64,000 nucleotides of DNA from Kappaphycus alvarezii (lineage: Eukaryota; Rhodophyta; Florideophyceae; Gigartinales; Solieriaceae): contig NADL03000675.1 in assembly GCA_002205965.3 (NCBI GenBank), positions 930,001 through 994,000 on the forward strand, read 5' to 3'. Made by a program: the position numbers and the translations under genes. This document shows positions 3 to 57,061 of the stretch, one piece after another (positions within the stretch are counted from its first letter, which is position 1; the number at the start of each line of letters is the position of its first letter). The notes under the pieces were generated by a model. It saw nothing but the letters and a program-made list of their open reading frames with translations, ran no database searches and was not told the DNA's origin.

Positions 3-1261
3 GAGGACATTGGTCGTAATGACATTGTCTTTGTATCAAACGGTGTCGAACACTGCATCTCTACTATCAGCCGTAACTTCTTGAGCTTTATTCAACTTGA
101 CAGATTTATTCCTTCTACCATGGAGACAAACATCAAACAAGGGTCCACTCTATCTTGTATATCTGCTATATCGCTTACTGAATCCTCCTGGTCTGATGTG
201 AAACGAATGATTGACAAAATTCACAAGCACGTATGCGGCCACGCGTCCTTTTCTGATTTCAAACTGCTACTTGAGAGAAACTCTCTTTGGAATGACGCGG
301 TCTCTCACTACCTATCCGAATTGGTCAATGCATGCCCTGCTTGTCGGTCCACGGCTACGCCGCAGCCGTCACGCAAAGTCCCAATCAGTTCCCTGTCGAA
401 AGCACTGAATGAAGTTCTATGTATTGACCATCTCTTTCTGGAAGGGCTCTGTCTATTTCACTGCATGGACCTACACTCACGCTACTCTGCATGCCATGTT
501 GTCCGTACAACATCTCTTTCAGAAGCAGTTATTGGTTTTGAGGCCTGTTGGAATTCTCAGTTCTGGCTTCCGGACTCCCTTCTATGCGAAAAAGCCTTCG
601 CCGTCGGTGATTTTAAAGAGTATGCAGACTCAGTTAGCATCCCCATTAAGAATGCACCACCGCAGCGACATCACAAGAACCCGATCGAGTCTAAGCATAA
701 CATCATTAGATCCGTCTTCCTTCGCCTGAAAGCCGCTTCTGATGCTAATGTTGACCCTGTACTTGCTGCTTATCGTGCTGTCACTATTTCAAATGACTTG
801 TACGGCAACGAAATTATGTCTGCCTTTGAAATGGCTGAAGGTTTCACTAAACCCGTCAATGTCTGCCCTGCCGACACAGTAATCCTTGCCGATGTCCGCG
901 AGGCACAGGAACAGCTCCAAGCACTCCGCAAACTGGCCCTCATTCTTCGCTCGAAGGCTGTAACCGAAGTTCCTCTCTCGGTCGGTGACTCTGTGGAGAT
1001 ATACCAAAAAAAGGACACGGAAAAGCGTGGCAGGTGGTCAACGCCTAAACCAATCCCCTCCATCGATATCTCCGCTCGCTCAGTCACAGTCCCCGGCGCC
1101 AGTGGCCGCTCTATTACTGCTGCTTTTGAAGACGCTAGACCGTCCCTTCCTCAGCACAGCTTCGCGCAGATTGTTCAGCATGGCCTTGACTCCATTGATG
1201 AGTCGATTCAAGACATAGCCAGACTTGAATTGCAGCCTGAATCTACTATTAGTACTCAGGT
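3..1261 (+). pseudogene. copia integrase region of pol (element A)
   Basis: This is the integrase that joins element cDNA to host DNA. The frame is open from base 3, the window edge. Near 210-350 it shows the GAG-pre-integrase/HHCC zinc region (HKHVCGH, later CPAC). It then has a DDE-type core: CIDHLF with MDLHSRYSA after it, and near 680 KNPIESKHNIIRS, which supplies the expected Glu. The frame stays open to 1457, but copia similarity passes to the -1 frame near 1260. The last ~65 codons up to 1457 are therefore out-of-frame readthrough. The shift equals one missing base. It could be decay or a sequencing error. A programmed -1 shift between integrase and RT is not usual for copia. Confidence 0.82.
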
Positions 1262-3204
1262 TTCCACCCCGACAACCCAGATACCGATGTGTCCTCGGAA
1301 AGTCCCTCTGAAAACCCCAATACTGTTCCTGACAGTGACTTCTCGGCAGACCGCAACAATTCTCCTTCCGTTGGTGACCGTGTTGATGTGCCCTGGGATG
1401 AAGACAGTGTTGTGTACCCTAGCACTGTCCACTCCGAATATGATGACGGTCGCATGACTATTCATTATGATAACGGTGATATTGAAACCGTTGATATGAC
1501 AACAGTACAGTGGAATCACTCTACTCCGCTCTCTGGCAGCAGCGGAAAGGTAACTAATGATCTTCATGTAATCAGTTCTGAACATAAAGTCCTGTCTCCG
1601 ATGCTAGAACACTTTGGCAAAAAGCCCTTTCTAAAATACCGTGCACAAGGATTCGACCAATATCCCCTTGTCAACGCGTATACTGTAGAAGAAGAAACGT
1701 TACTCAAGACTTCACGGCCCGTATATCATCGCTATGTTCCCAAAGGTGCGAATGTGATAAGTAGTCACACAATTTATAAGGTGAAGAGGAACGATGATGG
1801 CACTCTGAAATTGAAAGCACACATTGACCCTCATGGCAACGAAGATGATCTCAAAGACATCCTGAACAAAGATTGTACCACCTGTCCCCAGACTGGTCTA
1901 CGTGTTCTCGAATCTATTGCGTCGCTACTTGGATGGCAGCTCTACAAAGCTGATGTAACTGCAGCCTTCCTTCAAACTGGTGCAGCTGATCGCGATGTTA
2001 ATGTTCGGCCGCCAACCGAAAGTCGTATGCGCTCATCTCATATGTGGCTTTTTCTTACCGCCGCGTATGGTCTGGTTAATTCAAACGCCAAGTGGCAACC
2101 TCAATCAGATGCCATTATGATTGAACTTGGACTACTGCAGTCGAAATACATTCCACAGCTCTTTTACAAGAAACGCAATGGTAAACTGGTGCTCCTAGTA
2201 GCGAAGATCGTTGACGACCTCAAGGTTGCAGGGCATGGCAATAACGCCAAAGTTTTTCTCGAATCTTTCGACCAGAAGTTTAAGTTTGGCACTGTCAGTC
2301 ATGGTCCTGGCAAAATGCGGTTTTTCGGTATCAATACCATTCAGCATGACGACTCTACAATCGATACTAATGCAGAGGATAAGATTGAAGCTGTCACAGA
2401 GTATCCTCTCTTACGCCAACGTCGGAAAGAAAGCGACTCTCCACTTAATGCAATAGAGAAATCTTCCTTTGCGTCAACGAACAGCTCCGTTGATTGGATT
2501 GGTACGGCAGCCTCCCCTCTGTGCTCTTTCTACTCAAGCTATCTACAGCAAAAGGCCCCGAACACGCAGGTGCACTACATTGTTGAGAAAAATGCTATTG
2601 TACGCCAGCTAAAGAAATTTGGTACAACAATATCTTATCCCAGGCCTGAAGACAGCATGGACTATGAGTTGAGTGTCCTGGTATTTGCTGATGCATCACG
2701 TGTTTATGACGTTGGGCAACTCGGGACTATCTGTGGACTACTTGTTGGACCTATGAGAAAGGACTATTTATCATGTCGTATTATGGATGTCTCACAAAGT
2801 CAGACGCCCCGTCAAGAGTATACCCTCTGCTGAGATCTTTACAGCCTCTGAAGGTATAGACGACGGCAAAATGATATGCAATGCATACAACGAGCTTCTC
2901 AATGTCGACGTCAAGCTTCGCCTCTGTGTAGACTCAAAGGATTTATTTACATCTCTCTCTACACATAAAAAATTCAATTGACAAATCTATCCGTGGTGAT
3001 GTAAGCTCTATCCGGTATGAGTTTCAAACTGGTGCCGTTGATAAGATTTCATGGATTCCAGGCACCACCAACTTGGTTGATCCTCTTACGAAGAAGGATA
3101 GCCCACTGGCTGAAGCCCTACAGCTGACATTGTTTACAGGAAGGCTATCGATCGACTTTGACTCTGTTGCTCAAATCAAGTCGTGCGGAAGAAACCTTGG
3201 CTAA
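1262..3204 (+). pseudogene. copia reverse transcriptase and RNase H (element A)
   Basis: This is the continuation of pol. A linker rich in Asp, Ser and Glu leads into the RVT_2 reverse transcriptase: ADVTAAFLQTG at ~1950-1980, then AAYGLVNSNAKW. The catalytic box reads IVDDLKVAG (~2205) where copia normally has YVDD. RNase H follows with VFADASR (~2680) and PSAEIFTASEG (~2820). The C-terminal WIPGTTNLVDPLTK (~3055) matches the copia ending that precedes the 3' LTR. Two more frame changes are present. One near 2765 and one in the A-run at 2967-2972 each equal one extra base. The frame ends at the TAA at 3202. Confidence 0.85.
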
Positions 3205-46245: not shown

Positions 46246-47568
46246 TTACTGGGTAGAAGGCTGAGTTTTGCGGAACTCTGAGGCTCTAAATCGCATTGCG
46301 GTCAATCTACGTCGCTTGTTTCGGTAACGCGTTTTTGTTTGCTTGCAATTTTCGTTGAGTTCGTTTCCGATTTTGTGGAGGCGATTTTTCACACTGCGGT
46401 GATGGGCGGCATCTTCTGTGCGCAGCGGATGCATCTGAACGTGCACATTGGTAAGTGCAGCGCATAATCTGAACACTGAGTCGTAGTGGTCCTCCTTCCA
46501 TCTCCCCTTCCCTCTCATTACGCCCCATAACATCTTCAACCTCCCGAACCAGTTCTCAACAACAATGCGGTCAGATGAAATTTTCTTATTTTTTGCCTCC
46601 TCTTCCATGGTTAACCTTCAATTCTTGGGCTTCTTCTTTGGGATGATAGCACGAACTATCTCCGCCGCTCCTTGATATCCCTTGTCCATGAGCACCACCC
46701 AGTGATTCGGGTACTTTCCGGACAACATTCCAATATCAGCAGTTGCTCCAACCTCACCATCTTTCTTTATTAGGGCCTTCTTGTGAAACAGAGCATTTCG
46801 TTGAAAAATTTCGAGGTCTGGAACAATTCCAGGGTCGTGCGCAGTGACATCCACAGCGACCCCATTCCTCAGTACACTAACTTCTACTTTATACCCATAC
46901 AACTTGTGTTTTCCAGAAAAGTACGGCTTTTCTTCTTGCGTATTACCAGTTGGACGGTTGCACTGCTGAAGAGTAACGTCCGTGGCATATCTGGCAAAGG
47001 GATAGTTCTGAAACCGCACACCGTCCTCAAGCAGCTCCCCAAACTTAAAGTTCATCTCATTGTCTTTGACAAGGGGATCGTAAGCAGCATCAGATAGATT
47101 ATCAATAAACTTAACAATCATCTTTTCAAAAGTTGGGCCCTTGATGTTGAATATTTTGGCTACAACATCCCAATGAGTCCCAAACTTGAGGACCACCAAA
47201 CACATAAACAAAACATCCTTACCAAAGTACGGGCACTTTCTGCCGGGACCGTTGTTGTAAAATTCCCTTACGGTATCCGCAAACATATTTTAGATAGTAC
47301 TGAATTCAACAGCGTCAAAATTGATCATTTCGCGAACGTCAGTGGCTCCCCCAGTATTGTAAAATGCATCAAAAACAGGGCTGTCAGAATCATTCTCTTC
47401 GTCGCTCTCAATTGCGTTGTTGGGGGCTGCAAATCGAGCGAGTTCCTCTGCCCTATCTGCAGCCGCCTCGGCCAGGATTTCCAACGCATTTTGTGCTTCT
47501 GTAGGAGAGGGAACAGGAACATTACATTCCATGGTGACGTTATTGGCTGTGCTGGGGCGAGGAGGCAA
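46246..47568 (-). pseudogene. Harbinger-like DDE_4 transposase, near-intact, two nonsense codons
   Basis: The minus strand has one continuous 441-codon frame from ATG 47568 to the stop at 46246. It is broken only by TAA at 47290-47292 and TGA at 46618-46620, with no frameshift. The N-terminal ~90 residues are acidic and Ala-rich. The middle carries an IS4/Harbinger-type DDE core: ARYATDVTLQQCNRP (first Asp), KHKLYGYKVEVSVL, WVVLMDKGYQG (second Asp). After the TGA comes VVENWFGRLKMLWGVMR with the catalytic Glu. All three catalytic residues are present, unlike the other transposases here. It resembles the DDE_4 proteins common in oomycetes. TIRs were not found. Confidence 0.8.
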
Positions 47569-49674: not shown

Positions 49675-51749
49675 ATGCCTTCTTATCTCACCCCCAAACC
49701 CCTGGCCCGACTCCCGACAACCTATATTGCCCTTCTCCTTTCAATATGCCTACTTAGCCTCACTCATGCGCAGGATTGTTCCCACAGTCTTCCGATTGTC
49801 CCTCTGGGCCCCAACTGTTTCCCAACTTCACCTTTTCCCTCATCGGAGAATTGGTCAGAAGCGTCCAACGGATTGGCCCGGGTGTTATGCAATTCGACAT
49901 CCAGGACTTTTCAAACGTCATAAGGTATCAGGTCGTACAATGTGGTTGCGATCCTGGCGATCTCGAGGACAACAGCGACATCATTCGTATCTTTACCCAG
50001 CCAAATGGTGTTTATGCAGACTCGGGTCCCATACTAGGTCTTTACCTAGCACTCTTTCCCGAAGCCGACCGACTTGCTCAGGTTAATCGCAAAACTAACG
50101 TATTCAGTGGAAATGTCCGTAATCGAATAGACGCCGGTGACATCACCGAAACAAACACTCCAAGAGGCAGCATACCAGACAGGGCCAATTTCGATCCAAA
50201 TGCCAGCACCGCTCTTATCCCGTTAGAAGCCGCTCGAGAATATGTTAACATCCGCTCTGGCAATAGAAACGTCACGGCTGCTCTCGCTATCCCGATCGAA
50301 AGAATTACCGAACCCCTGCAACTTGCCGAGTGCATAAAGCTTATCGCCTTGCTGTTCGATCGCCTTGACGAGGCTACCCAAATGTTCTCCGATCTGCAGT
50401 CAGAATACAACCGCATAAAGGACCTGGCCACGAATCTCGCCATTCGTCGACCTTCCGTTTTCTTTAACTACCCATCCTTGGATCCAGAGGAACTCCCTTC
50501 AGCGGGATCCTCCTCGCAAGAACTGGACCCTGAGGAAGCCTTTACGTGGGAGCAGCCAAGACCTAATTCCTACCTTACCAACCTTGTAGCTGACGCCTCT
50601 GCCGAGTTCAATCAAGATCAAGATGTCGGAATTTTCTCATACAATCAAATACGTGCACGCTTCATGTCAACCAGGTTCTTGCTCAACTCGGGAAGAAACG
50701 ATGTATTTAGCAACACCAGAGATATTCGGGATTTCGTCGATGAACCTGTTGACGAAAGGCTTGTTACACGTGACGGTTCAATTCTCGATGAAACATTTAA
50801 CGAGGTTGCATTGGATTTAACTGCCGTTGTCTGTGGTAACGTGTGGAGTAACCAAAATCGATTCCGCGATTTGGCCACCGACTTTGATGAGGCTGGCGCC
50901 TTTCAGCCGGATCGTATCCTCATCGACTTTATCAGGATCCTGCATCCATACATCCGAGCGTTCGATTCAACAGACATACGATTCCAGTACAGATACGAAG
51001 AGTCGGATTCCGGCGGTATCGGACCGCAATGCCCGTTCGTTACCTTGGACGGTAATCCACCGAGAGGAAGGACGTTTGTGACGCTGCAATATAGAATATT
51101 TGACCTGAACCGCTTCGAGATAGAAGATAGCGCCGCGGAGGTAATTGAGAAAATTCGGGCAGACCTAGGGTTGGACATCGGTCGGGGAGACATAGAGTTG
51201 TTTTTCCCTGCGAGGCTCAGAGACACTACAAGCACAGGGATCAGGGTAAAAGCTGCCGTTCCCAACGACAGTGTCGACCTCTTTAGCAGCGAACAAGTTC
51301 TCAAATCTCTGCGGGCCAGTTTCCGCCCCAATCAGGTACAACCGGAGACTATTCCATCTGTAACCCCATCTCCCACGCCGACCATTTCTCCGTCTCCTCC
51401 GCCATCTACATCAAACCAAGCGCAAGCAGGGAGCGGGGGCGGCCTTGGCGGTGGCGCAGTTTTCGGAATTGTGGTTGCCGTACTTGTGGTGGTCGGTTTG
51501 GTCATTTTTTGTTTGATACGTCAGAGGAGACGATCGCATCAGCCTATGGCACGAGCTGCAGCTGGTCAAAGTGATCCGGGTTGGGTGGGCGCTGCAGAAA
51601 GTGGGGTACCACCTGGACAGGCTGGCGCAAGTGGCGGTCGTCAGGATCGGAACAGATTCCGACCCAGAATGAACTTTGGAAGGTCGGCGCCTGTTCCTCC
51701 GCATCCAGATGGGACGAGTGGTGCGGCCAATGATGACCCGTTTATTTGA
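49675..51749 (+). CDS. type I membrane protein of unknown function, ~691 aa (one frame break)
   Basis: The product is predicted to enter the secretory pathway and stay in a membrane. The start at 49675 gives a classic signal peptide: basic n-region, IALLLSICLLSL core, then THAQ before DCSH. A 1-base gap in the run GGGCCCC (49805-49813) moves the frame into the 657-codon ORF that ends at TGA 51747. Adding one base gives 692 codons. The ~530-residue ectodomain has Cys residues and N-glycosylation sequons (such as NVT) but no domain I recognise. A Thr/Ser/Pro stalk (SPTPTISPSPPP) and a Gly-rich hinge precede one transmembrane helix (AVFGIVVAVLVVVGLVIF, about residues 594-615). A basic RQRRR stop-transfer and a 76-residue Gly/Pro-rich cytoplasmic tail follow. 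It has no introns. Confidence 0.75.
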
Positions 51750-53490: not shown

Positions 53491-54742
53491 CTATGTCCGG
53501 ACGCGGCTCGCCGATTGCTTGAAGAAGCGATCTGCCGTCGCCTCCACAGATGTAAACGATTCTCGAACCTGTTCGTACGCAACAAATGACACAGCTGACG
53601 CTGGAAGTGCCTTGAACAAGTTCGGCAGGATACCTCTGAAGTATCCCCTCACACCCATTTCGCGTCCAATTTCTCTCCACATTCCTCTGAATGTTGTCGA
53701 GCTTGCACTGGTTTGAGAATCGAAACCAGCCACTTGCATCCGGCGACGACATGTATCCAGTGGGAACGCTGCGAACTGACCTGTCGCTGCTGCTATCGCC
53801 CCACAAGCAATCGAGCTTCCGGTCGTCGGTTGTCCTGAACCATCGTTTTTTCGAGGCAAGATAGGCCGCAGCGTTTCGTACATGGCAAAGCTAATACCAA
53901 CATACGGGAACACTCCCAAAAGGGTAGGCACAAGTCCCCTGTACACGCTTCCCACTCCCTCCCTCCGAATGGCCTCTGATATTCCGTGAAACGCCCCTCG
54001 GTATACCTCGAATCCATTTCTTTGCAGTGTCAGCCGACCACGAATAAAGTCAAGAGGATACGTCGCTGTCGCTCCAACCATCCCGCGATTCCTCCAATTA
54101 GCACAGCTTCCACTGCACGAGCTTGGGTACCACCTGACACTAACCGCACGTTAGTTTCAGAACCTTGCGAGCCAGCACCAGTAGAGTAGGACGCCCTCTT
54201 CGACTCGCTCATTAACCTTCGCATTACCTCGTTTTCACTCAAGCGCTTGACCACCAACAACTGAATAGCTGCGTTCGGGACAATGCGAAGCACATTAGCC
54301 CCATTACCTCGAAACATTGCTTTCACGAACCTTCGTCTTGACGGAACATTTGTCGCGTAGCTGAAATCCATCCATTTGAAAAACTTTTCGTGCCACCAGT
54401 TTGCATTAGAATCTTTAGGCGGTCCAATGGAGCAACTGCTGTTCTTGTTAATGCTCCTGCGACTCCAACAGATAGAAACCGACTCCAATCAATCGCAGGG
54501 ATCCACTTCGGAACGTTAGAGCTTTCTAGGGAACCTGCATACATGTGCACGTTTGGAGCAAACTGGGAACTGCCCCTAGATGAATACGCCATAAACTGAG
54601 ACCCAATGACAGACAATTCGCCGTCAGGTTCCACAAAGGAAAGGTCATCATTTCGACCCCTTGCAACATCGGCATGATCCAAGTCTATGTTAAGCATATG
54701 CTCGGTTAATTTGGAAACGTCCTGACGAAACAGTGGCGGCAA
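53491..54742 (-). other. mitochondrial carrier (SLC25) domain of the fusion gene
   Basis: Three Mito_carr repeats are present. Repeat 1 has GVAGALTRTAVAPLDRLKIL and FRGNGANVLRIVPNAAIQ (frames change at ~54332). Repeat 2 has GATATYPLDFIRGRLTL and YRGLVPTLLGVFPYVGISF. Repeat 3 has GQFAAFPLDTCRRRMQVAG and FRGILPNLFKALPASAVSF. Six membrane helices and import into the inner mitochondrial membrane are known for this family. The charge pattern and the YRGLVP segment are closest to the adenylate/CoA/ATP-Mg carrier clade. The carrier follows the EF-hand region with no gap, as in calcium-regulated carriers (SCaMC, aralar). Confidence 0.85.
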
Positions 54743-57061
54743 TATATCGTTTGACAGCTCTTGAATTCCTTTCCTGAAAGCAGTCGTGATCCATCCTTCC
54801 CGAAAACCTTCTTCAACTTTCCTGACTCTGTCGTCAACATCTTCTTTGCAGTCTCGTCGACTCCTGCGTAAAGTTGCAATAGAGACTGCATATCATCTAA
54901 AGATATGAAACCAGAATTGCACTGGTCAGCGAGCCGAAACGCAAAGTTCATTTCTGCTGCTGGCTGGTTCAGAACAATGTCAAATCGCACGAATTCCCAA
55001 AAGTCCATGAGAACCCCTTCATCATCTTCATTGGAAGAGCCTGGTGAATCAGCAATTACACTGTCACGGCTGATTTCGATATCGCTCTCGGAGCCACCTT
55101 GTTCAGACTTTTCCAATCTGGAAATGGGGTCTCGTTCACGGTTACTCGTAACTAAAGAAACAAGCAACGCGGCTAGTCGTTCCCTTTCTTCCTCGGGGAA
55201 GGCATGAATGGCTGCAAACTTCAAAAGATCATCTCTGGTCATATATGACTCATCCCACGTTTGACACTTGCGTTCTGATTGAAAATAGCTCGAAGGTACT
55301 GCGTTCCACCACCAAGACTCAGTCGATGAAATGATTCCGCAGAGATTGCCCAGCATTCCACATCTGTCGCGCCCGGACCGTGGCAGCCCTCGGCGCATTG
55401 TACATGAGACTAAGCTCACCAAAACTTTGACCTTCCTTCAGAGTCTTTGACAAGGAAAAGCTTTCCTCCTCCCCTCTGTCTTTTCCATTCTTTTGGTCCC
55501 CATTCTTGACCAATTTAGGGTGACGAATGTACCTCTCAAGCTCGCCGCTCTTGACTATGTAGAAGTTGTCTCCCGTGTCGCCTTGTTGAAACACAGTCTC
55601 TCCAGCTCGAAATTTCACAATGAAAAATGGACTCATCTCATTAGGTCCAAGCCTGTCTAATCGGCTAAAGAGAAAATGTTCCTGTAAGATCCGTCGCAAC
55701 GCACGCGAATCGGCGTTGGAAACAATAGAGCTGATATCACCGCTGGCGTCCTTGAAAAGTTCAAAAGTTGGCCTATCTAATTCCCACAATAGGGTCCTCT
55801 CCTTGGCTCGAATCGTTGACACGCGTGGGCAATTGAATGTGAAGGCAGTCAGTCCAAAGGCAGTCCTGGGACCCATAGTGCTCGTCAAAATTGGGTCTTC
55901 TCCGCTCTTCGACATAAAGCGCTCCAGCTCTCCGTAGCCTATCACATACATTTTGTCGCCATAGGCCCCTTGTTCGAAGACTATATCGCCGGGCTCAATG
56001 ATTCTAGCTCGGAACGACTTGACCAAATGTGACCTCTTGTACTCATCTGGGATCATACTGTATATTGGGGTTCTCTTTATGGCATCCTTAATTAGTCTCC
56101 GGAACGCTCGAGAAGGCGTTTCATTCTCGAGGACGCCACGGAAACTAGGCATGTTGCTCATGTCTTCCAAATCTGTTGAAGAATTAGCCTTTCTTCGGAG
56201 ATAAATCTCCTTACTCAGTCTTGCGCCTCTGAGCAAATGGACACCAGGAGGATTCTGTTGCTCGGAAGACATATCCTTTGGTGCGTAATAAAATGCCGGA
56301 GGATAAGATTCTAAGAGGCCTACTCGTTGATACGACGCCGCGACAAGCTCAGAGCAGAACACGCGAGACAAATCACTGGACTCACGAATGGACGCTCCTT
56401 GTTCCCTGGGTTCGATGGAGGAATTGACCTCCAATTCCTTCTGCAAGCGAACATTAATCTTCTCACAGTCTTGTTCAACCCTCGCCCGCTCACTATGCAG
56501 TAATCGCTTTTGAAAGTTGGTAAGTGCGGCAGTCTTTAGTTCGAGATCAATCTCCTCAATTTGTGCCTTTTTGTCAATTAGCAAGGCTGCAAGTCTCTCG
56601 CGCTCTTTCTTTGCCAGTGGATCTGTAACTCTGACCATAACTGGTCCAGCGCCAAGATCGTATGGGCGCCCCTGCATTTCTTCGGCAAACTCGAAGAATT
56701 TCTCGCGCATGGAGGTGCTGCGAACGACGGACAACTTTCGAACGGCAATCTCATTTGACTTGGATCGTCGGACGCGCTCTTCGAGACTTCGAAGTTTGAC
56801 ACCACCGAAATCGGCCTCCAGAAACAAAAGCTCGCCTGTCTTTGTGTCTCTTATGACGACGCCGACGTGATCCCATTGAGAGTTGGAGAAAATTTTGGCG
56901 ACTGCGCAGAGGATGGCGCCGGCAGGGGCCATGGATGTGCATCGGCGATTGAAAAGAACGATATCGCCTGAGTCGAGTCCTGGCGGGAGTTCAATGGACT
57001 TGCCCTTGTTCGGGGGTTTGTTGAGGGTTGTGGTTTGGTCATCGGTGGGTGCAGACGGCAT
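53491..57061 (-). CDS. NlpC/P60-like, two cNMP-binding domains, EF-hand and mitochondrial carrier fusion (~1191 aa)
   Basis: Start ATG 57061, stop TGA 53491. Five single-base gaps (about 55370, 55243, 54768, 54332, 54082) break the frame. Adding five bases gives exactly 1192 codons. Residues 30-250 are a permuted papain-like (YiiX/NlpC-P60) domain with SGDIVLF, His in WDHVGVVI (H65) and Cys in FCSELVA (C236), split by a coiled-coil insert. cNMP domain 1 (~335-440) has FGLTAF without the ligand-binding Glu. Domain 2 (~460-580) has FGELSLMYNAPRAATVRA with E549 and R558, like a PKA regulatory subunit. Next come aralar-like EF-hands (FRLADQCNSGFISLDD). The carrier has three repeats with PLDRLK, PLDFIRGR and PLDTCRRR, nearest to adenine-nucleotide/CoA carriers. 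Where the whole protein sits, and its substrate, are unknown. Confidence 0.78.
55319..57061 (-). other. uninterrupted 580-codon N-terminal part of the fusion gene
   Basis: This part is open without any gap and alone encodes the papain-like domain and nearly both cNMP-binding domains. The last 16 codons after VRAR are out of frame. The true continuation (TDVECWAISAESFHRLS) is in the next frame and matches the end of a cNMP-binding domain. This shows that the stop at 55319 is an artefact or mutation and not the natural end. Confidence 0.8.

Follow-up and report, generated by a model that had tools for sequence, protein, structure and literature searches.

The locus at 53491..57061 on the minus strand of the Kappaphycus alvarezii window (64,000 nucleotides; bases 930001-994000 of contig C671) raises the question of whether one gene joins a papain-like domain, two cyclic-nucleotide-binding (cNMP) domains, an EF-hand region and an SLC25 carrier, and of what such a protein would do. 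The reading path ran from an ATG at 57059-57061 to a TAG at 53491-53493 through six frame pieces, with one-base restorations needed near 55365, 55253, 54763, 54329 and 54081. The 3571 bases plus the five restored ones gave 1192 codons including the stop, or 1191 residues, which reproduced the count in the earlier note. Within the codons compared with a second copy, the restored frame of the window copy had no internal stops, vs. 48 and 59 with frame shifts of 1 and 2, respectively.

Pfam was run on the read-through translation with an X placed at each of the five breaks. On the minus strand, the modules were a C92 (YiiX/YaeF) permuted papain-like domain, two cNMP domains, an EF-hand region and a three-repeat SLC25 carrier, and the unmended pieces gave the same domains one by one; both agreed with the claim of five modules following one another with no intergenic gap. 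Mito_carr, cNMP_binding and Peptidase_C92 were over their cut-offs in this corrected translation, but the EF-hand models were not. The first 580 residues were also modelled without an alignment, but the resulting structure was uninformative (mean pLDDT 35.6). A scan of the sequence for bacterial-type promoters and terminators gave nothing in excess of shuffles.

Peptidase_C92 (PF05708) matched the read-through translation at 3.6e-10 (40.6 bits vs. a cut-off of 27). The core, at 56651..56899 (40.6-43.1 bits), carried the His of WDHVGVV (residue 65), and the Cys motif RVFCSELVAASY lay at 56330..56365 (residues 233-244; Cys 236), where it matched weakly when taken alone (11.9 bits, E = 0.24). The translation showed a charged insert (56381..56626), helical by eye, that separates the His half from the Cys half. 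Dropping this insert raised the match from 40.6 to 51.2 bits and extended it across the Cys part, which aligned well only with the insert removed; the Cys was in RVFCSELV. Both residues were in place, as previously claimed. An alignment with YiiX (2if6) spanned the WDHVGVV His and was weak (E = 0.09), and the domain was far below the NCBIfam cut-offs of YiiX and YebB. As in the YiiX/YaeF C92 enzymes, the profile was over cut-off and the His and Cys were present; unlike them, the seaweed gene had the helical insert and the fusion to sensors and carrier. No second C92 match was reported elsewhere in the assembly by a genome search that can miss such domains, as the known broken copy on contig C754 also went unreported.

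The cNMP_binding model (PF00027) matched two stretches of the read-through translation over cut-off (5.6e-34), and the closest PDB match of this part was the RI-alpha regulatory subunit of PKA (5.8e-30). In the phosphate cassette of cNMP domains, Glu and Arg hold the ribose and the phosphate, and Ala favours cAMP. Domain 1 (55760..55999; AFGLTAFTFNCPRVSTIRA) read FGLT...PRVSTI, with the Arg kept and the Glu replaced. Domain 2 (55260..55618; SFGELSLMYNAPRAATVRA) read FGEL...PRAATV, with the Glu, Arg and Ala of the cAMP-type cassette, and aligned to site A of RI-alpha across FGELxLxYxxPRAATV. Domain 2 spanned the break near 55365, and the RI-alpha alignment continued through it. The two cNMP domains claimed earlier were therefore both present, but only domain 2 had an intact PKA-type cassette, and cAMP sensing by domain 2 only is plausible from the sequence. 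The tandem cNMP domains and the site A cassette resembled PKA regulatory subunits; the carrier fusion and the missing Glu of domain 1 differed from them, as did the lack of any Pfam hit to a docking/dimerisation domain (E up to 1) in the read-through translation.

The EF-hand region, with its acidic and serine-containing linker, occupied 54720..55257. EF-hand_7 (PF13499; 23.5 bits), EF-hand_1 (PF00036; 21 bits) and EF-hand_6 (PF13405; 19.9 bits) were each under cut-off in the read-through translation; in the unmended piece, EF-hand_1 and EF-hand_6 were just over cut-off and EF-hand_7 was under it. The best PDB matches were the EF-hand protein 9k6m (8.6e-5), a plant-type calcium-dependent kinase (0.0068) and Aralar2 (0.012). 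By eye, no loop was fully canonical: the loop DQCNSGFISLDD had Cys at position 3 and Asp at position 12, and the first loop had one extra residue. The description of this region as aralar-like was partly upheld by the resemblance to Aralar2 and weakened by the imperfect loops and the scores under cut-off. Sensing of Ca2+ by this region is plausible but weakly predicted.

The SLC25 carrier (53551..54516) was complete, as previously claimed, with Mito_carr (PF00153) matching three stretches over cut-off (3.2e-58). The motif Px[DE]xx[KR] was present in three of three repeats (PLDRLK, PLDFIR and PLDTCR), and [YF][DE]xx[KR] in two of three (YETLR and YEQVR), the cytoplasmic gate motif of repeat 1 being VVKRLS by eye; repeat 2 was without the matrix Gln brace by eye. 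The best PDB matches were ADP/ATP carriers (AAC). Against bovine AAC (1okc), at seven residues which we take to contact the substrate, Arg79, Gly182 and Tyr186 were identical (3/7), three were conservatively replaced (Ile183 to Val, Arg279 to Lys and Lys22 to Arg) and one was changed (Ser227 to Ala). The three identical and three conservative residues argue for an adenine-nucleotide or CoA-type substrate, and a carrier predicted to be of nucleotide or CoA type fits the transport proposed in the earlier note. Roles of AAC substrate residues are described for a fungal AAC in the consulted sections of PMC7611774.

The assembly, searched over 336,021,096 bases in 884 contigs, gave 153 carrier matches. 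By comparison of paralogues within this one genome, the nearest to the fused carrier was 33% identical (L007) among the frames of 19 carrier loci picked mostly for length. No added sensor was seen by eye in the printed frames of those 19 loci.

Searching the assembly with the first 580 residues gave five matches, one at the window and four overlapping at a single place on contig C754, where the same modules occurred in the same order. The two contigs were collinear from 48.6 to 64 kb of the window (15 kb; identity 92.7-95.6%), with an additional 102-base piece at the far end of the collinear stretch; past it, nothing matched at 1e-20 over the initial 5.2 kb of an 8-kb stretch (L034). The two copies are either haplotypes or homeologues, or one is a segmental duplicate of the other. 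A chimeric assembly was rejected, since the C754 copy was collinear with the window. In the C754 copy, an additional 29 bases lay three bases upstream of the start codon (window 57064). Within the window, a 663-codon open frame at 49758-51746 (+) matched no Pfam model (E up to 0.001), and the DNA around it matched the C754 copy at about 93%. Two transposon-type features were also observed in the window, an RVT_2 reverse transcriptase at 1253-2830 (+) and a DDE_Tnp_4 at 46621-47289 (-). Elsewhere, contig C669 (L016 1216-1881) had a 221-residue phycobilisome-domain ORF with an N-terminal extension, with a similar match on C74 (L015), in keeping with an alga of the red lineage. A search for viral contigs gave a pattern match in one stretch of the assembly and none confirmed.

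The copies differed at 39 of 3548 aligned coding bases and at 9 of 415 bases of the short flanks. The comparison covered 1164 codons, with 21 more left out because of gaps; 30 changes were synonymous and 7 non-synonymous, falling on codon positions 1, 2 and 3 in numbers of 6, 3 and 28. The restored frame had a pN/pS of 0.071 between the window and C754 copies (Fisher p = 1.5e-13), vs. 2.3 and 5.1 in the shifted frames. By module, synonymous and non-synonymous changes were 6 and 0 for C92, 4 and 0 for cNMP domain 1, 6 and 0 for cNMP domain 2, 5 and 5 for the EF-hand region, and 9 and 2 for the carrier. By piece, synonymous changes outnumbered non-synonymous ones in five of six, the exception being piece 3 (EF-hand; 3 to 5). 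Five of the seven non-synonymous changes were in the EF-hand linker (55080-55053); some of these may be sequence errors, since the C754 copy was also gapped there. That copy had coding gaps of its own (15 of a single base, one of two bases and two of three bases), and the window copy had one further single-base gap at 54843 that left the frame unbroken. The second copy and the purifying selection gave good support to a single gene in the order previously given, with the EF-hand module as the exception.

The breaks bear on two readings opposed to a single intact gene. At three breaks (near 55253, 54763 and 54081), the C754 copy had the base that the window copy lacks, and the other two, near 55365 and 54329, were common to both copies. 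Breaks private to one copy have the appearance of assembly errors; for the two shared ones, a systematic error, recoding or a genuine old change is required. An explanation of the breaks by introns or a spacer was not favoured, as alignments to solved chains continued over those near 55365, 54329 and 54081 and the C754 copy supplied the base near 55253, 54763 and 54081. Nor was programmed frameshifting, the five sites having no common sequence by eye. A decaying pseudogene, with the breaks as real mutations, would account for five breaks in the window copy, more in C754 and two in both, but is very unlikely given the 30 synonymous vs. 7 non-synonymous changes. Pieces 5 and 6, which follow the second shared break, had 8 synonymous changes and none non-synonymous, which argues that protein is made past the shared breaks. 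The 15 single-base gaps of C754 that were not in the window copy resembled scattered assembly errors, and match scores were equal for another carrier that was similarly split (an open frame of 359 aa on C455 vs. 215 + 242 aa on C592). The earlier proposal of missing bases rather than decay was supported by the three breaks absent from C754 and by the changes below the second shared break. Two adjacent genes, one for C92 and both cNMP domains and one for the EF-hand region and carrier, would be suggested by the first 580-residue ORF, which stops just past the cassette of cNMP domain 2, and by the EF-hand and carrier unit, which alone would be an ordinary carrier similar to the ATP-Mg/Pi (APC) or aralar and citrin (AGC) type. 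However, the end of that ORF cuts domain 2, whose RI-alpha alignment goes on in the next frame, the restored frame passes from domain 2 into the EF-hand region with no stop or spacer, and the order is the same in both copies, which leaves a two-gene arrangement barely credible. The second copy, its pN/pS and the breaks absent from it make it unlikely that the locus is a set of separate genes, a pseudogene in decay or a chimera.

A single multi-domain SLC25 carrier gene with a cAMP-controlled transport mechanism is the preferred explanation as a whole, with a probability of about 0.6. The product would most likely be a cAMP-gated adenine-nucleotide or CoA-type carrier, a variant of the regulated SLC25 carriers. 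Those described in the consulted sections of PMC7611774 respond to Ca2+ through EF-hands, and the APC (SLC25A23-25) have an N-terminal EF-hand regulatory region before an adenine-nucleotide-type carrier, according to parts of PMC7611774 and PMC6283063. The seaweed protein shares with the APC an EF-hand regulatory N-terminus ahead of such a carrier, but by Pfam is without their four-EF-hand calmodulin-like domain and adds the tandem cNMP domains and C92. With the AGC (aralar, citrin; SLC25A12/13) it shares an EF-hand region of about 90 residues resembling Aralar2, although weakly (E = 0.012); it differs in having, by Pfam, a single EF-hand stretch vs. four EF-hands in APC and eight in AGC, and in contact points of AAC rather than amino-acid type. 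The EF-hands of APC are accompanied by an amphipathic helix, and those of AGC by a C-terminal one.

By analogy with APC and AGC, the long N-terminal part would be in the intermembrane space, where cytosolic cAMP would reach it. Binding of cAMP to cNMP domain 2 could move the sensor and the EF-hand arm away from or towards the carrier mouth, which would raise or lower adenine-nucleotide or CoA-type exchange. The EF-hand region would serve as the coupling arm, responding weakly or not at all to Ca2+, while C92 would probably be a membrane-bound enzyme that cleaves amides or thioesters. Direct control by both cyclic nucleotide and Ca2+, as proposed earlier, is thus plausible for cAMP through domain 2 only and doubtful for Ca2+, given the imperfect EF-hand loops.

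It is rather improbable, though not negligibly so, that the fusion is real with the cNMP, EF-hand and C92 modules being structural or binding otherwise, and the carrier uncontrolled by cAMP or Ca2+. The missing Glu of domain 1 and the imperfect EF-hand loops would agree with this, but the intact cassette of domain 2, with six synonymous and no non-synonymous changes between copies, would not. A carrier in the plastid, peroxisome or another membrane instead of mitochondria is unlikely and would be compatible with the other readings. A plastid-localised SLC25-family transporter is named in the part of PMC2246286 consulted, and no N-terminal signal was evident by eye; against this, SLC25 proteins in general are mitochondrial inner-membrane carriers, according to sections of PMC7611774.

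Same-frame cNMP pairs occurred, among 18 cNMP matches in the assembly, in the window gene and on contig C546, which had dense bacterial-type frames and looked bacterial; the pair of the C754 copy was in two frames. Other clearly alga-like cNMP genes were a K+-channel-like one (C513, with a similar piece on C26) and a one-domain one (C598/C752), and further single matches were on C541, C573 and C574. No stand-alone PKA-R-like gene was seen among the 18 matches, from which introns or low scores could hide one. Contigs C533, C562 and C569 were coding-dense (GC 0.58-0.59), had Crp-type cNMP proteins and looked bacterial. The one-domain gene was a 499-residue ORF (C598 ~942524-944020 (+), L048 2025-3521; copy L049 on C752) with one cNMP domain (36.7 bits), the C-terminal 265-285 residues of which may be a very divergent SLC25 carrier. 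Neither a Pfam carrier model (E up to 10) nor a PDB chain matched this C-terminus. In hhalign against 11 carriers of the same genome, the ORF had P = 0.0038 over 53 columns, and a K+ channel control 0.12. The C-terminus alone scored 28.7, vs. at most 20.8 in 100 shuffles, but over another set of 27 columns; with hmmsearch it was not above shuffles.

No description of this fusion architecture was found in the portions of the literature retrieved; a literature search for a PKA regulatory subunit in red algae gave nothing, and literature on cAMP in red algae, judged by the titles listed, gave nothing useful. Tentatively, the window gene may have the only PKA-R-like tandem sensor on a carrier, with kinase-free cAMP gating of nucleotide or CoA exchange at the membrane of the mitochondrion or another organelle, and an amidase or thioesterase in the same compartment, and C598/C752 as a possible second case. 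A PKA-type cAMP pocket in the chain of a carrier would link cAMP to organelle metabolism with no kinase in between. The gene bears on the targets of cAMP in red algae, the sole other same-frame tandem cNMP pair found in this assembly being on a bacterial-looking contig. If the ORF on C598/C752 is also a distant carrier, cNMP-gated carriers would be a small class.
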